Part shown: one piece after another, positions 19,752 to 31,388 of the stretch | Layout of the letters: every line of letters begins with the position of its first letter | Numbering within the stretch: position 1 is the stretch's first letter | From: Hyphomicrobium sp. | GTDB taxonomy: Bacteria > Pseudomonadota > Alphaproteobacteria > Rhizobiales > Hyphomicrobiaceae | DNA length: 64,000 nt | Assembly: GCA_002928515.1 (NCBI GenBank) | Contig: PERI01000003.1 | Coordinates: forward strand, 434,001 to 498,000 | Direction: 5' to 3' | The notes under the pieces: model-generated | The model's database searches: none | Seen by the model: the letters and a program-made list of their open reading frames with translations, nothing else | What the model was told of the DNA's origin: nothing | Program-made: the position numbers and the translations under genes

Positions 19752-21584
19752 TTAGCGCTCCGCCTGAAGCGTATGGGCCTTACGAGACATCATGAGAATT
19801 TCTTGCGGTGGCGCAAAGTCTTCTGGTATTCCAACCAGTCTGTGACGTTGCATCCACTGACCTAAGCACGGGTCGGCTGTGATGACCGCGAATGGAATGG
19901 CGAGCAGATATCCAGCGGTGAGCGGCAAACTCCAAAGAAGTGTCTCTTGCGAGATCAATAGCAACGCACCCCAGACCCAAAGTCCGAAAATCAATTGAGG
20001 CCACAGCGCTGCGGTCGCAGCCGACCACGACAGACCACGCGCATCACGCTGTTGTCCGCTCCAGACGATCGACTTGCCAAATATCAATCCAATCATGAAG
20101 AGCGATGTTCGGATGGTTGTGACAGCGCCTTGTAGAAACGCAAATATGACTTCCACCCCACAGCTCAATGCAAAGCGCCATGCACCACCAAAGCGGCGAA
20201 CTTCGCCAGGTGTCAGAATGGCATCGATGGTGCCGGCGATTTTGGGGCTGAGATACATCAACAGAAAAGTCACATAGAGGGCTTGGGCTGAGGCGACGGG
20301 AAAGTCGGCGATGGTTTGGGCTTGTGCGGCGGCAAACGGCAAAGCTGCAATCATCAATGTCCATGCCGGGATGCCGACAAACATCAAGATCGCCCACACA
20401 AGTTGGAAGCGGCTCACGCATTTCAAACCTGGAGAATTGAGGAGTTTGAGATACTGCATATTGCCTTGGCACCAGCGCACATCGCGACGAATGAATTCCA
20501 AAGCGTCGGGTGGATTATCTTCATACGATCCCCCTTCAACCGGCATCACACGCACTTCGAAACCGGCACGTCGCATCAATGTCGCTTCGACCTGATCGTG
20601 CGACAGCACATGCCCACCCAATGGCGGTGAACCCGGTAGAATTGGCAAGGCGCAGTGTTCAAGAAACGGTTTGATGCGAACAACTGCGTTGTGCCCCCAG
20701 AACGGGCCGCAGTCGCCAACCCACCATGCTTGACCCATCGTATAGGCGCGCATGCCCAAACGCATCCCGAACTGGAAAATGCGCGCGAACGCAGACGACG
20801 ATGGCGTACCGACGACGAGACTTTGGAGTATGCCGATTTTTGGATACGCTTGCATGATGCGCACGAGCTTGACGATGTCATGCCCGACCATCAAGCTGTC
20901 CGCATCCAGCGGCAGCATCAGTTCGAAATCGCCACCCCAGCGTTGGCAAAAATCGCGAACGTTCCCGGCTTTGAAGCCAGTATTTGAAGCGCGTCGGCGA
21001 TAGATGATACGCGCATTATCGGGGTCGGAAGCGCGCCAACCTGCAACGGCCTTCTGTTCCGCGTCCCCGACTGAAGCGATGTCGGTGTCACTCAGTACAA
21101 AATATGAAAAATGCCGCCCCTCGCCTGTGGCATCGAGACTCTCTTTTACGATTTTAAGCCGCTCGATCGCGCGCTCCGGCGCTTCGTTTCGCAGCGTCAT
21201 CAATACGGCTGTTTTTGCGATGACAGGCGTTGGCCCATCGCCGGCGGCGACAAATGGAGCGACATTCGAAATACCGTCGCGGACTGCGTGCAACTGAAAT
21301 AGGCCGATTGCGGCGTTCCAAAATCCGAGCACTAACCATGGCGTGCCAATCATGAAGCAAGCGAAAAGCAGCACATCCAATGCCGACAACCCGCCCGCAC
21401 TTAGAATTGTCCAGGCCCACCCTAGCAAGCCGAACCACGTCGTGACATTCAAGATTAAGACTAACCAACGTCGGCGAACGAGCGTGGCGTTTGCCTGAAT
21501 GCCTGCGGGTGTCGTAAGGGGTGTCGGTGTCGTGCTGATTGCATCAGCGGTTGCCGCATCGGCGATTTTTTGAACGTCAACCAT
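19752..21584 (-). CDS. opgH: Glucans biosynthesis glucosyltransferase H
   Basis: This inner-membrane processive GT2 polymerises glucose from UDP-glucose into osmoregulated periplasmic glucan. Two N-terminal helices (LVLILNVTTWFGLLGWAW and the next) lead into the catalytic domain with AVLMTLRNEAPERAIERL, LPLDADSLMVG (aspartates near residue 227) and the RRDVRWCQGNMQYL motif (near 365). Several membrane segments follow. The usual partner opgG is absent from the window. The start is only 21 bp from the divergent dehydrogenase gene, so promoters must overlap the coding ends. Confidence 0.92.
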   Translation of the reverse strand: MVDVQKIADAATADAISTTPTPLTTPAGIQANATLVRRRWLVLILNVTTWFGLLGWAWTILSAGGLSALDVLLFACFMIGTPWLVLGFWNAAIGLFQLHAVRDGISNVAPFVAAGDGPTPVIAKTAVLMTLRNEAPERAIERLKIVKESLDATGEGRHFSYFVLSDTDIASVGDAEQKAVAGWRASDPDNARIIYRRRASNTGFKAGNVRDFCQRWGGDFELMLPLDADSLMVGHDIVKLVRIMQAYPKIGILQSLVVGTPSSSAFARIFQFGMRLGMRAYTMGQAWWVGDCGPFWGHNAVVRIKPFLEHCALPILPGSPPLGGHVLSHDQVEATLMRRAGFEVRVMPVEGGSYEDNPPDALEFIRRDVRWCQGNMQYLKLLNSPGLKCVSRFQLVWAILMFVGIPAWTLMIAALPFAAAQAQTIADFPVASAQALYVTFLLMYLSPKIAGTIDAILTPGEVRRFGGAWRFALSCGVEVIFAFLQGAVTTIRTSLFMIGLIFGKSIVWSGQQRDARGLSWSAATAALWPQLIFGLWVWGALLLISQETLLWSLPLTAGYLLAIPFAVITADPCLGQWMQRHRLVGIPEDFAPPQEILMMSRKAHTLQAER

Positions 21585-21605: not shown

Positions 21606-22661
21606 ATGAATGACCAGGACGACACATTAGGGACCCGTCGTGCTGCTGCTAGGCGCAGCCAAGGCCAGATCGTCGTCGCCCGAGCGCTTTGGTACGTCAA
21701 GGCTGGCGTCGCAGAACTTCGGACGGAGCGGCTGAACCCGCCACGAGGCGATGAGGTCCGGGTCGCCACGCGCTACAGCGCCCTCAGTCGAGGTACTGAA
21801 CGTCTGGTATCTCTGGGCGAAGTTCCTCAAAGCGAATGGAGCCGCATGCGTGCCCCCATGCAATCGGGCGAATTTCCATTCCCTGTCAAATACGGCTATT
21901 CGGCGACAGGCGTTGTTACTGCAGGCGCGGAAACCCTGATAGGCCAGCGCGTATTTGCCTTGCATCCGCACCAAGACCATTTTCAAGTTTCGGCCAATGC
22001 GGTCGTCGCTTTGCCAGATTCTGTGTCCGACAAGCGCGCTACGCTTGCCGCCAATATGGAAACCGCTCTGAACGCGCATTGGGATGCTGGAACTGCGCCC
22101 GGCGACAAAATTCTGGTCGTCGGTGCTGGAATCTTGGGTTTGCTCACCGCTTATCTCGCGCGTCGCATTGCCGGAGCTGATGTCACTTTGACGGATATTG
22201 ACGGATCGCGCGCAGCACTTGCGGCTTCGTTAGGCATTCCATTTGTTCCCCTGCGCGATGTTCGCGATGACAACCAGATTGTCTTTCATACCAGCGCGAC
22301 CGGAGCCGGATTGCAGACGGCACTTGATGGAGCAGGATTCGAAGGCCGAATTATCGATTTGAGTTGGTATGGCACGCGCCCGATAAGCATTAACTTAGGC
22401 GGCGCATACCATAGTCGTCGATTACAATTGATTTCGTCTCAAGTTGGGCATGTTTCGCCTCGACAACGTGCAACTACGAGCCATCGGGCGCGTTTGATTA
22501 AAGCAATCTCTTTCCTGGACGACCCCGACCTCGATGTTCTGGTTTCTGACGAAATTGGCTTTGATGATTTAGCTGTCGCTTTGCCACGCATATGGTCAGG
22601 AGTTGAGGGCAGCTTGCCGCCTGTCATTCGCTATCTCGCCGACGAAAGGATCGCTCCGTAA
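21606..22661 (+). CDS. Medium-chain dehydrogenase/reductase lacking zinc ligands
   Basis: The nucleotide-binding motif VVGAGILGLLTAYLAR (about residues 173-188) and the N-terminal half (VRVATRYSALSRGTERLV, FPVKYGYSATGVV) identify the MDR superfamily. The protein has no cysteine at all, and the GHE motif is replaced by KYGYSATG, so neither catalytic nor structural zinc can be bound in the usual way. It is the first of four rightward genes: its stop overlaps the PTPS-like start by one base, and the GT and MT genes follow with overlaps. I infer a reductase step on a shared small-molecule substrate; the substrate is unknown. Confidence 0.78.
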   Translation: MNDQDDTLGTRRAAARRSQGQIVVARALWYVKAGVAELRTERLNPPRGDEVRVATRYSALSRGTERLVSLGEVPQSEWSRMRAPMQSGEFPFPVKYGYSATGVVTAGAETLIGQRVFALHPHQDHFQVSANAVVALPDSVSDKRATLAANMETALNAHWDAGTAPGDKILVVGAGILGLLTAYLARRIAGADVTLTDIDGSRAALAASLGIPFVPLRDVRDDNQIVFHTSATGAGLQTALDGAGFEGRIIDLSWYGTRPISINLGGAYHSRRLQLISSQVGHVSPRQRATTSHRARLIKAISFLDDPDLDVLVSDEIGFDDLAVALPRIWSGVEGSLPPVIRYLADERIAP

Positions 22662-23065
22662 TGTATTCCGTTGAAGTCCGCGACCGGATCATGATTGCAC
22701 ACTCCCTGCCCGATCCGTTCTTTGGCCCGGCTCAATATATGCATGGCGCAACATTCGTGGTTGACGTGGCTTTCTTTCGCGAATCCCTCACGGCGCAGAA
22801 TGTGGTCGTCGATATTGGCGCAGCACTTGACGTACTCAGTCAAACACTCAAACCGCTGAACTATCAAAATCTCGACGCTTTACCCCAATTCAAAAACATT
22901 CTGACGACAACAGAATACCTCAGTAAATATATCTTCGATGCCATGTCCCTTGCCGCACGCTCGGGAGCACTCGGCGTTGATGGGCAAGGGCTTGCTAAAA
23001 TTCGAGTGACGCTGTCTGAAACGGATTTGGCACGCGCCACCTTTGAGGGACCAGCCGGTGCCTGA
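22661..23065 (+). CDS. 6-pyruvoyl-tetrahydropterin synthase/QueD-like protein, catalytically atypical
   Basis: The 134-residue protein has the T-fold layout of PTPS/QueD: IAHSLP (H14 aligns with the first zinc histidine), MHGATF (H28 keeps the second, but the third of HGH is alanine, A30), VVVDIGAALD, TTEYLSKYIFD (E85) and a pterin-anchoring LSET (E120). The catalytic cysteine is missing and the LDHH segment with the catalytic histidine reads LNYQN. The pterin pocket therefore seems kept while standard lyase chemistry should be lost. It overlaps the glycosyltransferase gene by 8 bp. I infer a new activity or a binding role on a pterin-like molecule. Confidence 0.78.
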   Translation: MYSVEVRDRIMIAHSLPDPFFGPAQYMHGATFVVDVAFFRESLTAQNVVVDIGAALDVLSQTLKPLNYQNLDALPQFKNILTTTEYLSKYIFDAMSLAARSGALGVDGQGLAKIRVTLSETDLARATFEGPAGA

Positions 23066-24104
23066 GGCCATTTTTGCAATTCCTGGCGACTTGAGAAGTC
23101 CGACAGGCGGCTATGAATACGATCGCCGATTGATCGAACTACTTCCGGCATTCGGCGTCAGTGTACAGCATGTCGCCTTGCCTGCATCATTTCCAAATCC
23201 AAATGCTGCGGATATCAAAACCACTGCTGGTTTGCTCAATGGTCATGACGAGGACGCCACACTCCTCATCGATGGATTGGCTTATGGCGCATTCCCCCGC
23301 CCATTGCTGTCCCAACTGAAGGGCCGCGTCATTGCGCTCGTCCACCATCCGCTATTTTTGGAAACCGGCCTACCACATGCGCGCAAAGTGGAACTCAAGA
23401 CGTGCGAAGGTATCGCTTTGTCGCGTGCCGACCACATCATCGTCACCAGTCGTGCCACTGGGCGTATTCTGATTGAGAACATGGCAATTGATCGGGAAAT
23501 GGTGACGGTCGCAGAACCAGGTACGGATCCAGCCAGCCGCGCGACAGGTACCGGTTCACCATTGCATATATTGGCGGTCGGTGCGGTGTTACCGCGCAAA
23601 GGTTATGATCTCTTGGTCGAGGCGCTTGCTCCACTGACCGATCTCGATTGGCGGTTGACTATTGCAGGTGCTCTGGACCGACACCCTGCAGCGGTCGAAA
23701 CAGTGCAATCTCTAATCGATAAGCATAAGCTGAACGATCGCGTGGTGCTTGCAGGGAAAGTCGTGCCCGCGACGTTGCAGCGATATTATGAAAGCGCTGA
23801 TCTCTTCGTGTCAGCGTCTTTATTTGAAGGCTACGGTATGGTTCTAGCCGAGGCGATGGCGCGCGGTCTTCCTATCGTGACAGCGACGGGCGGTGCTGCT
23901 GGTGATACGGCTGGCAAGGCGGCTGCCCTCCACGTCGAAGCTGGCAACGTCGAAGAACTCACGATCACACTACGGCGCGCGCTCACCGACAAAAAGTTGC
24001 GCGACCGTCTGGCCGATGCGGCATGGGAAGCGGGTCGCACTTTGCCTACTTGGCATGAGACAGCACGGCGCGTTGCCGCCGTTATTCTTGGTCTTCGACC
24101 ATGA
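23058..24104 (+). CDS. Glycosyltransferase family 4
   Basis: A GT-B enzyme with the GT4 C-terminal domain: ILAVGAVLPRKGYDLLVEAL, VVLAGKV, YYESADLFVSASLFEGYGMVLAEAMARGLPIV, which holds the donor-binding E-x7-E. The N-terminal domain includes SPTGGYEYDRRL. The GTG at 23058 with GAGGG eight bases upstream is chosen as start and overlaps the PTPS-like gene. In cyanobacteria a GT4 enzyme glycosylates tetrahydrobiopterin, which makes its pairing with a PTPS-like gene suggestive. The donor is not predictable from sequence. Confidence 0.87.
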   Translation: MPEAIFAIPGDLRSPTGGYEYDRRLIELLPAFGVSVQHVALPASFPNPNAADIKTTAGLLNGHDEDATLLIDGLAYGAFPRPLLSQLKGRVIALVHHPLFLETGLPHARKVELKTCEGIALSRADHIIVTSRATGRILIENMAIDREMVTVAEPGTDPASRATGTGSPLHILAVGAVLPRKGYDLLVEALAPLTDLDWRLTIAGALDRHPAAVETVQSLIDKHKLNDRVVLAGKVVPATLQRYYESADLFVSASLFEGYGMVLAEAMARGLPIVTATGGAAGDTAGKAAALHVEAGNVEELTITLRRALTDKKLRDRLADAAWEAGRTLPTWHETARRVAAVILGLRP

Positions 24105-24943
24105 CAACGTTTTCGTCCGAATGGCTGAAATTACGTGAAGCAGCAGACATCAAGGCGCGCAATCGCGAGGTGTCGAACGCACTGTCCGCTCGCTTTGCAC
24201 AACGCAACGAAGTCAGCGTCGTCGATCTTGGCTCTGGCACAGGCTCCAATTTGCGTGCTACCGCGCCGCTTCTTCCCAATCTGCAAACTTGGACACTGGT
24301 CGATCACGACAGCGCGCTCTTGGACAGTGCGCGGCGTGCGTTAAGTTCTTGGGCTGACACGGCGCAGCCTCACGCAGACTATGCTGCGGGCCTAACATTG
24401 ACCAAGGGATACGCGACAATTCACGTCCATTTTCTGCAATGCAATTTGGCCAGCGATCTCCATACGGCTTTATCTCAACGCGTCGATCTCGTCACGGCTT
24501 CAGCTCTGTTCGATCTCGTGTCCGCTGATTTTGTACGTGCGTTTGCCCATGCCATCGCAGACCGCCGCGCGGTTTTTTACGGCGCACTGACTTATAATGG
24601 CATTCAACGCTGGCAGCCGCATCGGCCAACCGATAGCCAAATGACGAGCGCCTTTCATCGGCATCAGTTGGGTGACAAAGGATTTGGTCCGGCATTGGGG
24701 CCGATGGCATCCGCCCACCTCGCCGATCAGTTTCGCCTCAATGGCTATCTTGTGCTTGAAGGCGAAAGCCCATGGCAGCTTTCGCGCAATGATCGGATGT
24801 TGATCGACGAATTGGTGCGCGGCCACGCCATGGCTGTGGCTGAGACCGGTGCCGTCGATATCAAAACCATCGAAGCTTGGGTCAAAGTCCAGCGGACCGG
24901 GGCAGAAACCGGTCACACTGACATTTATGCGGTGCCGACCTGA
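24101..24943 (+). CDS. Class I SAM-dependent methyltransferase
   Basis: The SAM-binding motif VVDLGSGTGSNLRA lies near residues 39-52 and the acidic motif II WTLVDHDSALLDSARR follows. The rest (VDLVTASALFDLVSADFV, WQLSRNDRMLIDELV) fits small-molecule methyltransferases of about 280 residues. It overlaps the GT4 gene by four bases (ATGA), so it is translationally coupled and likely acts on the same product. Confidence 0.87.
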   Translation: MTTFSSEWLKLREAADIKARNREVSNALSARFAQRNEVSVVDLGSGTGSNLRATAPLLPNLQTWTLVDHDSALLDSARRALSSWADTAQPHADYAAGLTLTKGYATIHVHFLQCNLASDLHTALSQRVDLVTASALFDLVSADFVRAFAHAIADRRAVFYGALTYNGIQRWQPHRPTDSQMTSAFHRHQLGDKGFGPALGPMASAHLADQFRLNGYLVLEGESPWQLSRNDRMLIDELVRGHAMAVAETGAVDIKTIEAWVKVQRTGAETGHTDIYAVPT

Positions 24944-24950
24944 GCCCGGA

Positions 24951-25550
24951 TCAGACTATCCGTTTTGGTAGCATCCGCTCGACAACGCGATCTTTGCGCA
25001 CCGCGCGATGATAGATAGCGGCGGCAAAGTGCAACGCAATTAAAGCCAACAGCGCCCAGCCCAAATACTCGTGATAGGCAAAGACTTGCTCTGAGAATTT
25101 TTCATCTTTTGCTGTAACCGCCGGCAACGGAATGCCAAACGCAGATAGTGCGCCGTAATAAGAGACGCCGATGTAACCTGCAATCGGTACTGCGAGTAGC
25201 AACAGATAAATCGACCAGTGCGTCAGATGACTGATGCCGACCAGTGCAGGCGGCACGGAATTGTCAGATGGCGGAGCACCTGCCGTTAAGCGGTAAAACA
25301 GACGCAAAACAACCAACGACAAAATTGTAATGCCCAAAAGTTTATGGCCGTCGTAGAGGTTGCCCGTGGTGGCATCAAACAATCCCGTTTTGGTTTCGCC
25401 TGCCGGGTCGGTGTAGACCATCTGATACCCGCGGTACGTCATATACATGCCGAGCGGAAACTGAATGAGCAAAAGCACTACCGTCAGCCAATGAAAGCCG
25501 CGCGCTGCGGGTGAGTAAACGGGAATGTCATAGTCGCGATGTTGGGCCAT
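24951..25550 (-). CDS. Cytochrome b561-type membrane protein
   Basis: Four membrane helices with the histidines that bind b hemes are visible: ARGFHWLTVVLLLIQF (H20), DGHKLLGITILSLVVLRL, HLTHWSIYLLLLAVPIAGY and HEYLGWALLALIALHFAAAIYHRAV. Such proteins pass electrons from quinol or to periplasmic partners. The ATG has AAGGAT in the final codons of the upstream RibD-like gene six bases away, so the two are translationally coupled. This suggests, without proof, an electron supply for the same pathway. Confidence 0.85.
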   Translation of the reverse strand: MAQHRDYDIPVYSPAARGFHWLTVVLLLIQFPLGMYMTYRGYQMVYTDPAGETKTGLFDATTGNLYDGHKLLGITILSLVVLRLFYRLTAGAPPSDNSVPPALVGISHLTHWSIYLLLLAVPIAGYIGVSYYGALSAFGIPLPAVTAKDEKFSEQVFAYHEYLGWALLALIALHFAAAIYHRAVRKDRVVERMLPKRIV

Positions 25551-25556
25551 GGGCGC

Positions 25557-26345
25557 TTATCCTTCGGACTTTCCACTCAGATCACAATCGAACACCACAT
25601 CCCCATCGTCAAGAACATGTACGCGCGTGGGGGGGCGCAAAGCGTGCTCAAGTTTGGCGATAGGTGCGAGTGACAATCCTGTGACGCCTGAACCGAGGAT
25701 CATCGGCGCCATCAGAATATGCAAGCGATCTACAGCGTCGGCATCGATAAATCGCGAAACTGTCGATGCTCCGCCTTCAACAAGAATTTTACCCAACCCG
25801 AGCTTAAACAGACCCTGCATGATGGCTCGCGGCGCAAGACCGCCGTTCGTTGACGGAATGATAAGCGTCTCGGCCGCATAGGCGACGGGAAGATGGTCCC
25901 CGCGCACCACGATGCAGCGTTCGCCGTCATCGGCCAAGCATTTGGCTTCAGGCGTCAGTTTACCGTTGGGATCGATGATGACGCGCGCCGGACTTCGACC
26001 AGGAACGCGACGCACGGTGAGACGCGGATTGTCCGCAAGCACGGTACCGATGCCGACGACGACAGCGTCCACGTGCGATCGGAGCCGATGCACATGATCG
26101 AGCGCGGATTTGCCGTTGATCCAGCGCGACTCTCCTGACGGGGTCGCGATACGTCCGTCGAGCGACTGGCCGAGTTGGGCGATGACATAGGGTCGATCGC
26201 TCGGTGCATTGATGAGCGGCAGCAGAAGATCGTCGTAAGACGATAGAAGAGTCGAGGCCGCTTTGGTGTTGGGGGGCTCTGTTGGCTGCGACGGCATGAG
26301 CGGCGTGACGACCTTGATGTTTCGCAGGCGCGCGGTGATAACCAC
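25557..26345 (-). CDS. RibD C-terminal (reductase) domain protein
   Basis: Only the NADPH-dependent reductase domain of riboflavin enzyme RibD is present, not the deaminase: YVIAQLGQSLDGRIAT, SRWINGKSALDHVHRLR, AVVVGIGTVLADNPRLTVR, KILVEGGASTVSRFID and LMAPMILGSG. The fold reduces aminopyrimidine ribose phosphates and is related to dihydrofolate reductase. A stand-alone domain near a GTP cyclohydrolase II gene (30492-31127) points to a pteridine or pyrimidine side pathway or to a split riboflavin enzyme. The start is a GTG at 26345, or an ATG at 26297. Confidence 0.85.
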   Translation of the reverse strand: MVITARLRNIKVVTPLMPSQPTEPPNTKAASTLLSSYDDLLLPLINAPSDRPYVIAQLGQSLDGRIATPSGESRWINGKSALDHVHRLRSHVDAVVVGIGTVLADNPRLTVRRVPGRSPARVIIDPNGKLTPEAKCLADDGERCIVVRGDHLPVAYAAETLIIPSTNGGLAPRAIMQGLFKLGLGKILVEGGASTVSRFIDADAVDRLHILMAPMILGSGVTGLSLAPIAKLEHALRPPTRVHVLDDGDVVFDCDLSGKSEG

Positions 26346-26383
26346 TTTGGCTTAGTCGATACCTATATGGCCCGGACGGGGAC

Positions 26384-28705
26384 ATGCGCGAAAGTGATAG
26401 TCGGTTCAGCGGGCTGGAACAAGGCAAGTGGGCCTTTGTGTATGTCGCTTTAATTATCGCCTGGGCCATCTTGGCTTGGCCATGGTTGTCGGGACGGGTG
26501 ACCATTCCATGGGACGCTAAGGCGCATTTTTTACCGCAACTGCAATTTCTGGCCGATAGCTTTGCAAAAGGTGAAAGCCCATTCTGGACGCCGTTCGTAT
26601 TCTCCGGCCATCCTCAAATTGCCGATCCGCAATCGCTGATTTTCTCGCCACCGTTTGTGGTGTTGGCTTATTTCGATCCGACACCGACAGCGTGGGCGGC
26701 CGACGCCACACTGTTTGCCATGTTGCTGGTGAGTGCCTGCGCGATGGTGTTGTGGTTGTCTGACAAAGGCTGGCATCCGGCAGCCGCACTCCTGTCAGCT
26801 TTAAGTTTTGTGTTCGGTGCCGCGATGGCATGGCGTGTTCAACATGTCGGGCAAGTGATGAGCCTTGCGTATTTGCCAATCGTTCTGCTGTGCTTGGATC
26901 GGGCACTCGTGAGGCGATCGGTCGGCACCGCCATCGCAGCAGGCGTGGTTGCTGCGTTTCTGGTTTTGGGGCGCGATCAGGTCGCCCTTTTGTCGATATA
27001 TTTTTTGATCGGTTATGTCGTTGCGCACTGGCTGCAAAATTCTGATCGCACGGCTGCGGTGCGCACATCGATCAAACCGTTGGCGATCGCGAGTGTCAGC
27101 GGATTGGCCATTATCGCGATCCCGATTGTGTTGACCATACTTGTTGCCGCCGATAGCAATCGTCCTGTGATTGACTTGGAAGGTGCCGGGCGCGGATCGC
27201 TTCATCCCGCACACGGTCTCACTCTATTTGCACCCGATGTCTTTAATGCGTCTGGCGCAATGGGTGACTATTGGGGGCCTCCGAGTTCTCACTGGGGCGA
27301 TACTGGTCTTTTTCTCGCACAAAACATGGGCCAGCTTTATCTCGGTGCATTGCCTGCCCTGTTGCTGATCTGGGGCCTAGCAAGCGGCACGCTTTGGCAA
27401 CGGGAGGCGCGTGTATTTTCTATCGCGCTCGTACTGGCTTCGTTTTACGCGCTTGGTTGGTACACCCCCATTTTCAGTCTCATGCATGCGGCAGTTCCTG
27501 GCGTCGATCTTTATCGGCGGCCGGCCGATGCGGTTTTTCTGATAGGATTTTTAGCGAGTGTTCTTGCTGGTCACACGCTGCAAAACATTTCGGAACAGCC
27601 GATGCTTCAGCAGAAGCCATCGATGCGCGCTGTGGCTTTGACATTCATCATCGTTAACTGTGCCTTCGCGGTCATGATCGCCCTCGCCGTTCAGCATGAG
27701 ATGACCGCGACTGTCTGGCAGGGCATCGGCATCCCAGCGGCACTGTTTGCCATGGCCGCCGTTGCGCTCCTGGCACTCCCGCGGTTGATCCAGGAAAAAT
27801 CTGTCATGGCAACAGCTCTGGTTGCCATTTTTCTGACCGCCGATCTTGCGTGGTCGAACGGTCCGGGAAATGCCACAGCGTTGCCGCCTGAGACATATGC
27901 GGAACTCGATCCGGCCAGCCAGAACGAAACCATTGCCATTCTCAAACAAAAAGTGAGTGAAGGCCGATCCGATACACGACGCGACCGCATCGAACTCGTC
28001 GGCTTTGGTTTTCATTGGCCGAACGCGAGCCTCACGCATGGCTTGGAGAATACGCTTGGCTACAATCCGCTGCGTCTTGGCCATTATGCGCGCGCGACCG
28101 GCGCTGGTGACCACGTTGGACTGCCCGATCAAAAGAACTTTTCGGCCCTTTTTCCAAGATATCGCTCTCCGCTCGCCGATCTACTCGGCTTGCGCTATAT
28201 CGCGAGCAGCGTACCACTTGTTGATATCGACAAGGCGCTAGGAACAGATGACCTTCAGCTCATTGCGCGAACGAAAGACGGATACGTCTATGAGAATACC
28301 CGCGCGCTCCCCCGCGTGATGTTTGCCACACAATCTCTTCAAGCTAATTTCGATACATTGATAGACACTGGCCAGTTGCCTGAAGTCGATTTCAACACGC
28401 AAGTACTTTTGCAGACGCCGCCGGACACTCGACAGCGTGCACCGGGTCGCGTTCGCATCACATCGTACAATAACACTTTCGTCACGATTGATGTCGATAG
28501 CCCCGACGGCGGCTGGGTCGTCTTGAACGATATCTGGCAGCCATGGTGGGTTGCATCGCTTGACGGTGCCGATACTCCATTGCTGCGCGCGAACGTTATA
28601 TTCCGCGCAGTTGCCGTTCCGCCCGGCCAACATCGCGTTACATTCACTTTCGAGCCAGTGCGCGGCGCCATTCAACAGATGAGCGGCGGTCTACATGCCG
28701 ACTGA
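26384..28705 (+). CDS. YfhO-like GT-C family membrane protein
   Basis: The protein is 773 residues with about a dozen hydrophobic helices and a C-terminal globular part. Features include IPWDAKAHFLPQLQFLADSF, SPFWTPFVFSGHPQIADPQS and LYRRPADAVFLIGFLAS, as in YfhO-type proteins that transfer sugars from polyprenyl carriers to polymers outside the membrane. The C-terminal beta region (VTIDVDSPDGGWVVLNDIW, PGQHRVTFTFEP) is also typical. It overlaps ndvA by 11 bp. Its acceptor is unknown; a role in decorating glucan or surface polymers is an inference. Confidence 0.78.
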   Translation: MRESDSRFSGLEQGKWAFVYVALIIAWAILAWPWLSGRVTIPWDAKAHFLPQLQFLADSFAKGESPFWTPFVFSGHPQIADPQSLIFSPPFVVLAYFDPTPTAWAADATLFAMLLVSACAMVLWLSDKGWHPAAALLSALSFVFGAAMAWRVQHVGQVMSLAYLPIVLLCLDRALVRRSVGTAIAAGVVAAFLVLGRDQVALLSIYFLIGYVVAHWLQNSDRTAAVRTSIKPLAIASVSGLAIIAIPIVLTILVAADSNRPVIDLEGAGRGSLHPAHGLTLFAPDVFNASGAMGDYWGPPSSHWGDTGLFLAQNMGQLYLGALPALLLIWGLASGTLWQREARVFSIALVLASFYALGWYTPIFSLMHAAVPGVDLYRRPADAVFLIGFLASVLAGHTLQNISEQPMLQQKPSMRAVALTFIIVNCAFAVMIALAVQHEMTATVWQGIGIPAALFAMAAVALLALPRLIQEKSVMATALVAIFLTADLAWSNGPGNATALPPETYAELDPASQNETIAILKQKVSEGRSDTRRDRIELVGFGFHWPNASLTHGLENTLGYNPLRLGHYARATGAGDHVGLPDQKNFSALFPRYRSPLADLLGLRYIASSVPLVDIDKALGTDDLQLIARTKDGYVYENTRALPRVMFATQSLQANFDTLIDTGQLPEVDFNTQVLLQTPPDTRQRAPGRVRITSYNNTFVTIDVDSPDGGWVVLNDIWQPWWVASLDGADTPLLRANVIFRAVAVPPGQHRVTFTFEPVRGAIQQMSGGLHAD

Positions 28706-30491
28706 GCAGCTTACACTTTTTGATATCTACAAACGCGCGCTCGGACTTTTGAGCTCGGAAAAATATCTGGCTACGTCTCTTGCGGCCGCTGGCGTTGTCA
28801 TCGCCGCCATTCAACTCGCAGAACCCATCTTGTTTGGGCGTATCGTCGATGCGCTTTCCAAGCGCGAAAATGCTTATGGCTACATCGCATTGTGGGCTGC
28901 ACTCGGGCTGTTTGGAATTCTCGCTGGCGTCGTGGTCGCGGTTTATGCTGACCGGCTCGCACACCGACAAAAACTATTGCATATGGCCAACGTGTTTGAG
29001 CGCGCCATAGCGTTGCCGCAGACGTATCACGCCGATATTGGATCAGGCGCGGTCATCCGCACAATTCTTTCGGGCACGAGTTCGCTGTTTTGGCTGTGGC
29101 TCGGTGCGATGCGCGATCAGCTGACGGCACTGTTCGGGATCATCCTGATGGTGCCGACCGCGATCAGTATGGATGCGCGTATGGCGCTGATCCTGCTGAT
29201 ACTAGCGGCGACGTACACTCTGCTCAACGTCATCGTCATGCGCAAGACATCAGCGGGACAAGGTGCCGTTGAGAGCTACGAATCTGCTCTTTCAAGTCGG
29301 GTTGTGGACGTCATCGGCAATGTGACTGTTGTGCAAAGCTATGCTCGATTGAATGCAGAGGCGCAGGCATTACGCGCGTTGATGCAAGACTTGCTCACAG
29401 CACAGTATCCGGTTTTGACATGGTGGGGCGTGCTCGCCGTTCTCCAGCGCGCTGCTGCGACGCTAACAATGGTGGCGATTTTCATCGCCGGTGTTGTGCT
29501 GTCGCAGTCAGGCGATCTGACCGTCGGAGAAATTGTGAGTTTTGTCGCGTTTGCGACGCTGCTCATCGGCAAGCTCGATCAGTTGTCGAGTTTCGTCGTG
29601 CGCATTCACCAGCAAGCGCCAACGCTGCGGGCATTGTTTGCCATGATGGATCAGCCGGAATCTGTGAGCGACAGAGTAGGCGCTCAGCCGCTTTCATCGG
29701 TCGAAGGCCATCTTCAATTTCATGGCGTCAGCTTTCGTTACGGGTCAGGTCCGCAAGGTATTTTTGATGTCAGCTTTTCAGGCAAGACCGGAGATACTGT
29801 CGCGCTCGTGGGGCCGACCGGGTCGGGTAAGTCCACGACGATTGCCCTGTTGCAACGCTTTCGAGCGCCAGATAGCGGACGCATTACACTTGACGGCGTA
29901 GATATCGCCGACGTCACGATACAGTCGTTGCGCCAATCCATCGCCGTCGTCTTCCAAGACGCAGGCTTGTTCAACCGATCGATTGGCGACAATATCAGAA
30001 TCGGAAAGCCTGATGCCAGCCAAGCCGAGGTTGAGCGTGCAGCAAAGCTCGCCGAAGCCCATGACTTTATTGCGCGTAAGCCCGAGGGCTATGACACCAT
30101 GATCGGTGAACGCGGCGCATCGCTATCGGGCGGAGAGCGCCAGCGGATCGCCATCGCGCGGGCCATTCTGAAGGATGCGCCGATACTCATTCTCGATGAG
30201 GCAACCAGCGCGCTCGATGCCGAAACGGAAGCGAAAATCAAACGCGCTTTAGATACGCTTCGACACAACCGCACGACTTTTGTGATCGCGCATCGGCTTT
30301 CTACGGTTGCCGATGCGGATCAAATCCTCGTGCTGGATCAAGGCCGCATCGTCGAGCGAGGTCGGTTTGGCGATCTTGCGGAAGGCGATGGATTGTTTGC
30401 GCGACTTGTGGCTGAAGGCGGGTTCACGGTTCCAAAAACGACGGAACAAGCTGGCGCGGTGCCACAGACCGCCAGCTCAGTCCTTCCGTGA
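28695..30491 (+). CDS. ndvA: Beta-glucan ABC exporter (NdvA/ChvA type)
   Basis: Six membrane helices precede a full ATPase domain: Walker [10 protein letters not shown] (near residue 373), Q-loop [12 protein letters not shown], signature LSGGERQR (near 476), Walker [12 protein letters not shown] and switch histidine VIAHRLS. Similarity is strongest to NdvA/ChvA, which export cyclic beta-1,2-glucan, with the family segments [17 protein letters not shown] and [16 protein letters not shown]. No cyclic glucan synthase is present in the window, but OpgH is encoded 8 kb away and might supply the substrate. The stop abuts that of ribA. Confidence 0.88.
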
Positions 30492-31127
30492 TTAGATTTT
30501 ATGAGCCATGCGAGAGCGTTTGGTTTCCAAATAGCGCTTATTGAATTTGTTGGGTTCGACGACGATAGGAAGACGTTCAACGACCCGTATGCCTAAAGCT
30601 TTCAGCGCTTGTTCTTTGGCTGGATTGTTAGAGAGTAATTTTATCTCACTGATACCCAAGTCGCCCAGAGCCCGAGCTGCCAAGCGATAGTCGCGGCTGT
30701 CGATCGGCGCGCCGACTTCGATATTGGCCTCAATGGTATCGAGGCCTTCATCTTGCAACGCATAGGCCTGAATTTTCTTGAACAGACCGATGCCTCGCCC
30801 CTCATGGTAAGGTACGTAAATCAACACGCCCAGCGGGGCTGTCGTAATTACCTTCAAGGCTGCTTGGAGTTGCTGATAGCAATCGCAGCGCAACGAATGG
30901 AAAATGTCGCCTGTTACGCAGCCGGAATGCACGCGAACAATCGGAATCTCATTCTGACTGTCATCTTCAGTGCGATGGACGAGAGCCAGCACCTGCTCTT
31001 CCTCTGCGTCACCTTGATAGGCGTGCGCTTCGAAGACGTGCTCGCGACCTTCGAATTCGATCGGAAGAATCGTTTCGATGGTCCAATCGACAGGTAACTT
31101 CACGGGTTTCAGGACGCTGGTCGTCAT
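30492..31127 (-). CDS. ribA: GTP cyclohydrolase II
   Basis: The enzyme opens the imidazole ring of GTP with loss of formate and pyrophosphate, the first step to riboflavin. The zinc ligands are C70, C81 and C83 (SGCVTGDIFHSLRCDC), and the active-site segment YHEGRGIGL and the GTP-binding tail LLSNNP are in place. The ATG at 31127 is taken because GGGAGAAG lies just upstream; an extension to 31172 is less likely. It is not fused to a RibB domain. Given the nearby PTPS-like, RibD-reductase, GT and MT genes, this copy could serve a special pteridine pathway instead of, or besides, riboflavin. Confidence 0.92.
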   Translation of the reverse strand: MTTSVLKPVKLPVDWTIETILPIEFEGREHVFEAHAYQGDAEEEQVLALVHRTEDDSQNEIPIVRVHSGCVTGDIFHSLRCDCYQQLQAALKVITTAPLGVLIYVPYHEGRGIGLFKKIQAYALQDEGLDTIEANIEVGAPIDSRDYRLAARALGDLGISEIKLLSNNPAKEQALKALGIRVVERLPIVVEPNKFNKRYLETKRSRMAHKI

Positions 31128-31388
31128 ATCTTCTCCCAACGATTGGCAGCCAGCGGAGTGGCCGCCTGCCATCGCAGATTACTTCATGCATGAATTGCAT
31201 CGACGTGACTGGCTTGTGTCATCTCATAGTTGGAGACTGGCTCAACAGATCACTCTAATGCAAGATGGTGTAAAAATTAGGTCACAGATGCGGCGTTGCC
31301 CAGTACGAACGCGCCAGAATTGGATATGGATATCCGTCATATAGGGCACAAGGTGTGCGGCATTGTCCTATGCCTTGTTCTGTTAAGC

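Follow-up and report, generated by a model that had tools for sequence, protein, structure and literature searches.

A widespread gene unit built on an SCO6650-type T-fold protein, and a candidate biosynthetic branch from early riboflavin synthesis

What is made by a gene group in which a dehydrogenase, a relative of pterin enzymes, a glycosyltransferase and a methyltransferase overlap one another, close to enzymes of the riboflavin type? The question is raised by a locus of Hyphomicrobium sp. (NCBI GenBank assembly GCA_002928515.1, 2.92 Mb in 20 contigs) within a stretch of 64,000 nucleotides, referred to here as the window (contig PERI01000003.1, positions 434,001 to 498,000 of the forward strand). 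An earlier note, made from the sequence alone, had suggested a pathway to a glycosylated, methylated pteridine-like compound. Here, we report that the gene unit is real, widespread and undescribed as far as our searches reach, and we consider it rather probable that the locus encodes a dedicated biosynthetic pathway that departs from riboflavin synthesis at its first steps. The earlier idea was right in outline, wrong in assigning the chemistry of 6-pyruvoyl tetrahydropterin synthase (PTPS) and overextended in taking in cytochrome b561, and RibA is presumably shared with riboflavin synthesis. No account of the cluster was found in the literature searched, a coverage that lies mostly outside subscription journals; one paper among the results (PMC2853524) has a single mention of SCO6655.

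The core genes and their conservation

Open reading frames (ORFs) and Pfam matches bear out the arrangement first described, four overlapping genes with cytochrome b561, a RibD_C reductase and RibA nearby. MDR stands for medium-chain dehydrogenase/reductase, SAM for S-adenosylmethionine and MT for the methyltransferase.

21606..22661, + strand: MDR dehydrogenase without zinc ligands, core gene 1 (stop TAA; best NCBIfam profile BchC)
22661..23065, + strand: PTPS-family T-fold protein without PTPS/QueD signature residues, core gene 2 (start ATG; PF01242, E 2.1e-19)
23043..24104, + strand: GT4 glycosyltransferase, core gene 3 (start TTG, alternative GTG 23058; PF00534, E 1.5e-28)
24101..24943, + strand: class I SAM methyltransferase (MT), core gene 4 (start ATG; weak Pfam Methyltransf_25/12)
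24951..25550, - strand: cytochrome b561, an optional neighbor adjoining RibD_C (PF01292, E 5.1e-30)
25557..26345, - strand: RibD_C reductase of a core-associated subfamily, with no deaminase domain (PF01872, E 5.8e-42)
30492..31172, - strand: GTP cyclohydrolase II, RibA (alternative ATG 31127; Pfam GTP_cyclohydro2, E 5.4e-52)

In the window, the MDR and T-fold genes overlap by 1 bp (at ATG 22661), the T-fold and GT4 genes by 8 bp (GTG 23058 start) or 23 bp (TTG 23043 start), and the GT4 and MT genes by 4 bp; b561 and RibD_C, both on the - strand, are 6 bp apart. The claim that the core four form a unit, which had been based on such overlaps, is borne out, as the genes stay together across the surveyed loci. 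A set of 60 relatives contains the T-fold gene in 35 (E 0.001 or better). A further set of named loci, the top 80 among 520 confirmed, consists of close relatives drawn partly from the same genomes, and the two sets are not independent samples. Fifty-eight of the named loci span 20 kb or more, and among these the T-fold, GT4 and MT genes are each present in all 58 and MDR in 54, with b561 in 44 and RibA in 36. Three Bosea loci that we inspected have RibA and no RibD_C between b561 and RibA.

A survey of 385 alphaproteobacterial genomes (the class survey) gave a sharper picture. The T-fold profile (threshold 1e-15) matches 45 genomes, with a worst match of 2.2e-37, and the MDR profile (threshold 1e-30) matches the identical 45, with a worst match of 4.6e-95; counted by genus, each matches 34 of 277. 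For the cluster subfamily of RibD_C, 40 genomes score at least 197.5 bits; below them the scores drop to 151.9 bits, the level at which RibD-like proteins set in. Thirty-nine of these 40 are core genomes, so that a tie the earlier note could only infer is now strong (39 of 45 core genomes versus 1 of 340 coreless ones, the latter being G186, which is 74% complete). Fisher tests against the T-fold gene gave 7e-46 for RibD_C and 8e-60 for MDR, values that ignore shared ancestry.

The same genes are also physically linked. Regions were taken from 40 of the 45 core genomes (all except G000, G112, G123, G264 and G396), and a gene counted as linked if it scored at least 100 bits (at least 50 for creatininase) no farther than 9.5 kb from the T-fold gene. 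By this measure the 40 class loci have MDR in 39, GT4 in 39, MT in 35, RibD_C in 32 and RibA in 16, at a chance level for RibD_C of about 1% per locus (an arithmetic estimate based on the 39 RibD_C matches that 15 genomes contain). Cytochrome b561 is linked in only 9 of the 40 and is thus a lineage-specific extra, not the pathway member it had been taken for.

The unit extends well beyond the class. Of 398 genomes in a phylum survey, 27 have the core T-fold gene, 11 of the 27 lying outside Alphaproteobacteria, and in 17 regions taken from the 27 (seven from outside the class; genes counted over the whole stretch) MDR occurs in 17, GT4 in 16, RibD_C in 14, MT in 13 and RibA in 7. Twenty plasmid records carry a T-fold relative. 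The 14 that were opened have MDR in 11, GT4 in 10, MT in 10, RibD_C in 9 and RibA in 6, with hosts that include Methylosinus, Rhizobium, Allorhizobium, Agrobacterium, two Rhodobacterales, Thiodictyon, Streptomyces, Microbacterium and Arthrobacter; actinobacterial occurrences were seen on plasmids only. The most compact arrangement is a seven-gene block of creatininase, MDR, T-fold, GT4, MT, RibD_C and RibA genes in G220 (locus L213, 1.6 Mb) and G318 (locus L214, 1.4 Mb). Median pairwise identity of the core families ranges from 37% (MT, 65 loci) to 53% (T-fold, 79 loci), and because the genes stay together at such distances, their association is more than chance. The pairwise distance matrices of six families correlate (r 0.58 to 0.87), which shared ancestry alone could likewise produce.

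The core proteins and the two riboflavin-type enzymes

The best PDB match of the T-fold protein is 3d7j, SCO6650 of Streptomyces coelicolor (E 8e-51), with PTPS and QueD entries trailing at 6.6e-6 or worse. The match is near full length (174.8 bits over 129 positions with a 13-sequence profile), includes the common segments FGPAQ..HGATF and LNY.NLD and places the protein in the SCO6650 subfamily. SCO6650 is named "uncharacterized protein" in the PDB and has no pathway assigned in the literature we reached; its structure study reportedly found no zinc, no PTPS activity and a pterin-like pocket. With the QueD/PTPS proteins (COG0720 PTPS-I, II and III) the core protein shares its family, His14, His28 and the Glu of the ET(D) segment, but it has HGA for HGH, its profile reading hGatf in place of hGhny and plnyqnld in place of pldhknld. 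The pattern A-x-x-x-H-G-A, in which Ala replaces the Cys and the third His, was found in 154 of 155 T-fold ORFs (repeated genomes included) and was recognized by eye in the one other, L145; we take the lost Cys and His positions to be catalytic ones. The signatures CxxxHGH, CxxxxxHGH and ExxHGH, attributed to PTPS-I, II and III in PMC5041015, are all missing, as is LDH, and the PTPS/QueD chemistry proposed in the earlier note is not supported.

The RibD_C protein finds its best PDB match in 6p8c, annotated as 2,5-diamino-6-ribosylamino-4(3H)-pyrimidinone 5'-phosphate reductase, an archaeal-type annotation. It belongs to the same family as RibD and the archaeal-type reductases but is separate from them by score and by the residue at the RibD Lys position, which presumably discriminates substrates. 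Of 78 cluster RibD_C ORFs, 69 have a readable motif there, with Q in 52 and H in 17 (in the remaining nine the pattern matched elsewhere or nowhere), as against Lys in the three rib-operon RibDs that we read (L131, L133 and L136) and Asn in 6p8c and 2azn. The deaminase motif pair was found in none of the 78. Unlike bifunctional RibD, the cluster enzymes have neither a deaminase domain nor, where the motif is readable, the reductase-motif Lys, and they form a distinct subfamily.

The Pfam matches of MDR and MT all fall short of the curated cutoffs. For MDR the best NCBIfam profile is that of BchC (TIGR01202, E 4.7e-17), yet 62.1 bits against a cutoff of 291.25 puts it outside that family. Twelve aligned MDR sequences, including that of the window, have invariant S-R-G-T-E and K-Y-G-Y segments at what we take to be the sites where zinc-dependent MDRs carry ligands; the ligand motifs of such enzymes (Cys, His-Glu) are absent. 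"Cysteine-free," as the enzyme had been described, is accurate for the window protein and inaccurate for several relatives, which have some Cys. Its predicted structure (predicted local distance difference test, pLDDT, 89.2) gives generic MDR fold matches. That of MT (pLDDT 96.1) resembles various class I methyltransferases in the PDB at template modeling scores of about 0.4 to 0.6, with no close solved relative among these fold matches, and no MT relative was present in the viral contigs searched. PDB sequence matches of GT4 are 3c4q, 3c48 and 6kih, which we take to be MshA and sucrose-phosphate synthase.

Window RibA equals what we take to be the Escherichia coli RibA sequence at 9 of 11 positions (Cys54, Cys65, Cys67, Arg49, Glu92, Tyr105, Asp126, Arg128 and Lys154); the other two, Gln91 and Thr149 in E. 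coli, are His and Ser. It thereby has the three zinc cysteines, Tyr105, Asp126 and Arg128, whose roles in cyclohydrolase II we presume, and it scores 210.4 bits with NF001591 (cutoff 148) and 199.1 bits with TIGR00505 (just under the cutoff of 205.85). The presence of Tyr105 may indicate complete deformylation to the diamino product.

A proposed branch from the riboflavin precursor

We infer a series of reactions, their order and a product as follows. GTP would be opened to 2,5-diamino-6-ribosylamino-4(3H)-pyrimidinone 5'-phosphate by RibA, joined in some lineages by a formamidase of the creatininase family. The cluster RibD_C would then turn the ribosyl into a ribityl chain by reduction, leaving the 2-amino group in place. 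The SCO6650-type T-fold protein may bind the ribityl-pyrimidine, or a pteridine formed from it, through the kept Glu and act on it by chemistry other than that of the PTPS and QueD lyases. An alcohol or carbonyl in a side chain would be oxidized or reduced by the zinc-less MDR, methylation would fall to the SAM enzyme and GT4 would attach a sugar. A pteridine ring in the product is plausible, and a ribityl-pyrimidine fits equally well.

Diversion of a riboflavin precursor is favored because the T-fold and MDR genes occur in the same genomes and RibD_C follows them, both genome-wide and near the core in the class, plasmid and phylum loci. It is also favored because the cluster RibD_C has Q or H for Lys while the genome has a separate RibD, because of the compact block in G220 and G318, and because G220, G074, G275 and G441 (among 23 core genomes checked) hold an extra, stronger-scoring cyclohydrolase II elsewhere alongside the linked RibA. 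RibE or RibH, searched by BLAST with the proteins of the Hyphomicrobium sp. genome (1e-8), is near the core in only 1 of 79 loci, which again favors diversion. Nothing indicates more clearly than the minimal blocks and this scarcity that the core is fed by the early steps of the riboflavin route and not by the late ones. Diversion draws further support from Sinorhizobium meliloti, in which BrbF, of the creatininase family, deformylates the RibA intermediate (PMC9478397).

Several points weigh against this reading. The associations are uncorrected for shared ancestry. RibD_C is in only 23 of the 58 named loci that reach 20 kb, rarer than in the class survey; six core genomes have no cluster-type RibD_C (G123, 68% complete, and G155, G234, G290, G292 and G330); and solitary T-fold genes without MDR, GT4 or MT nearby are found on three Streptomyces plasmids (L145, L149 and L151). 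Linkage of RibA is limited to 16 of the 40 class loci, a genome without the core (G025) keeps the same kind of RibA, and the best-scoring cyclohydrolase II of 6 of the 23 genomes (G245, G166, G223, G194, G087 and G277) is unlinked. Nor does the presence of a linked creatininase track the state of RibA, as described below.

The role of RibA in Hyphomicrobium sp. itself belongs among these points. The second riboflavin set that the earlier note had raised does exist, as a rib operon with RibD, RibE and RibH above NCBIfam cutoffs plus RibBA (L131:4797-5945, contig C5), but it is incomplete in one respect: the ribB part of RibBA appears intact (235.9 bits versus a cutoff of 177.45), while the ribA part is degenerate, at 47.7 bits versus 205.85 and with no cysteine motif recognized by eye. 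PF00925 has only two matches in the genome. Since window RibA is the only intact-looking cyclohydrolase II, it presumably feeds riboflavin as well; with this and with G025, a standing as a dedicated member of the pathway is not supported. In G318 and G396, too, the linked RibA is the only strong cyclohydrolase II, and in the rest of the 23 core genomes the linked RibA scores best, except in G288 (a single 126-bit match). On these scores, RibA appears to be shared and sometimes duplicated.

The creatininase-like genes near the core in several lineages (7 of 40 class and 4 of 17 phylum loci; PF02633 in L141, L213 and L214) recall BrbF, but none lies beside the window core, and those that are linked are little similar to the two in the Hyphomicrobium sp. 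genome (L223 and L224). By family, they are candidate formamidases. Met in place of RibA Tyr105 is presumably the mark of a formyl-retaining enzyme; it was seen in both Streptomyces loci that have RibA and creatininase, while Tyr105 is kept in the eight other loci with both genes (L039, L189, L190, L213, L214, L249, L251 and L253; five alphaproteobacterial and three from outside the class). We therefore rejected the rule that a creatininase implies a RibA that stops at the formylated intermediate. As a separate observation, the stand-alone RibA of the window type (30492-31172) is a candidate for the cyclohydrolase partner of BrbF that is "yet to be discovered" according to PMC9478397.

If the branch exists, the orphan family of SCO6650, for which a structure has been solved, gains a place in a pathway; a RibD-type reductase subfamily is already shown to be tied to a PTPS relative without signature residues. 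The producing bacteria probably benefit from the compound, because the set is kept in 1.4- to 1.6-Mb genomes, is plasmid borne and is common to two phyla, and a search for the metabolite is directly testable in Hyphomicrobium, Methylosinus and Streptomyces strains. The pterin glycosides of cyanobacteria (mentioned in PMC13259868) and Chlorobium, in which the glycosyltransferase acts on tetrahydrobiopterin (PMC5683033), are alike in idea only, as a GTP-derived heterocycle with a sugar; the present cluster differs in its pairing with cyclohydrolase II and RibD_C and in having no recognizable PTPS.

Alternative explanations and neighboring genes

The core could instead modify a cell-envelope glycan, with GT4, MT and MDR acting on sugars and with RibD_C and RibA as riboflavin bystanders. 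It sits between two genes of periplasmic glucan synthesis and export, with a YfhO-type membrane protein gene also between them:

19752..21584, - strand: MdoH glucan glucosyltransferase, a divergent recurrent neighbor outside the core (NCBIfam equivalog above cutoff)
28695..30488: ChvA-type glucan export gene (NCBIfam equivalog above cutoff)

MdoH is present in 52 of the 58 named loci, 10 of the 40 class loci and 8 of the 17 phylum loci, and other lineages have CDP-alcohol phosphotransferase, flippase-like and sulfatase genes. However, MdoH was not found in 30 of the 40 class loci or in seven actinobacterial plasmid loci, whereas RibD_C co-occurs with the core genome-wide, and we know of no role for a T-fold/PTPS protein in glucan synthesis. 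We regard this alternative as unlikely.

A second flavin module, in which RibA and RibD_C supply a secreted flavin or lumazine and GT4 and MT decorate the finished molecule, seems to us quite unlikely as well. Both are riboflavin-type enzymes, and modular flavin synthesis with a secretion branch is proposed for S. meliloti in PMC9478397, but the lack of deaminase motifs in all 78 cluster RibD_C ORFs and the near absence of RibE and RibH around the core argue against it, and it leaves the T-fold protein unexplained.

Recurrent neighbors were sought by clustering the ORFs of 79 loci and inspecting the 28 largest clusters. CDP-alcohol phosphotransferase (PF01066; 12 of 40 class, 8 of 17 phylum and 7 of 14 plasmid loci), an LPG-synthase-TM/flippase-like protein (PF03706; 6 of 17 phylum loci), FkbM methyltransferase, sulfatase, MdoH and b561 (5 of 17 phylum loci) vary by lineage. 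YceI (PF04264), a lipid-binding protein, is near the core in 14 of the 79 loci (L193, L194, L196, L198-L204, L207, L211, L250 and L251). These accessories point to the envelope or to lipid, and none is universal. Because CDP-alcohol phosphotransferase, the MprF-like flippase-domain protein, YceI and sometimes b561 recur outside the relatives of the window, the product might conceivably be a membrane-anchored, redox-active ribityl-pterin, a phospholipid or glycolipid with a methylated, glycosylated, GTP-derived heterocycle as its head group; we rate this as a long shot, and if it were true, lipid redox cofactors would gain a new class. No photolyase was recognized by eye among the 28 clusters, in an inspection that included no search aimed at photolyases.

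A queuosine/7-deazapurine or tetrahydrobiopterin-type pathway, with the T-fold protein as QueD or PTPS, would account for PF01242 membership and for plasmid annotations as 6-carboxytetrahydropterin synthase or 6-pyruvoyl tetrahydropterin synthase, but we rejected synthesis of either kind as highly improbable, given the lost signature residues, a QueD profile (TIGR03367) score of 27.4 bits against a cutoff of 89.25 and the presence of another PTPS-family gene in the genome. This second gene (L265:294-680, contig C3; 100.1 bits) keeps HGH and LDH. Its product reads NARIHGH, with Asn at the catalytic Cys position of QueD, and scores 78.7 bits against the same cutoff for a query without the first two residues; it appears QueD-like, short of a confirmed QueD.

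An Rfam scan gave three tRNAs only, one of them at its threshold. On the two Rhodobacterales plasmids (L144 and L150), there is no GT4 gene between the T-fold and MT genes, and ribokinase/PfkB-type genes adjoin the core. The solitary T-fold genes of L149 and L151 adjoin YbaB/EbfC and discoidin-domain genes.

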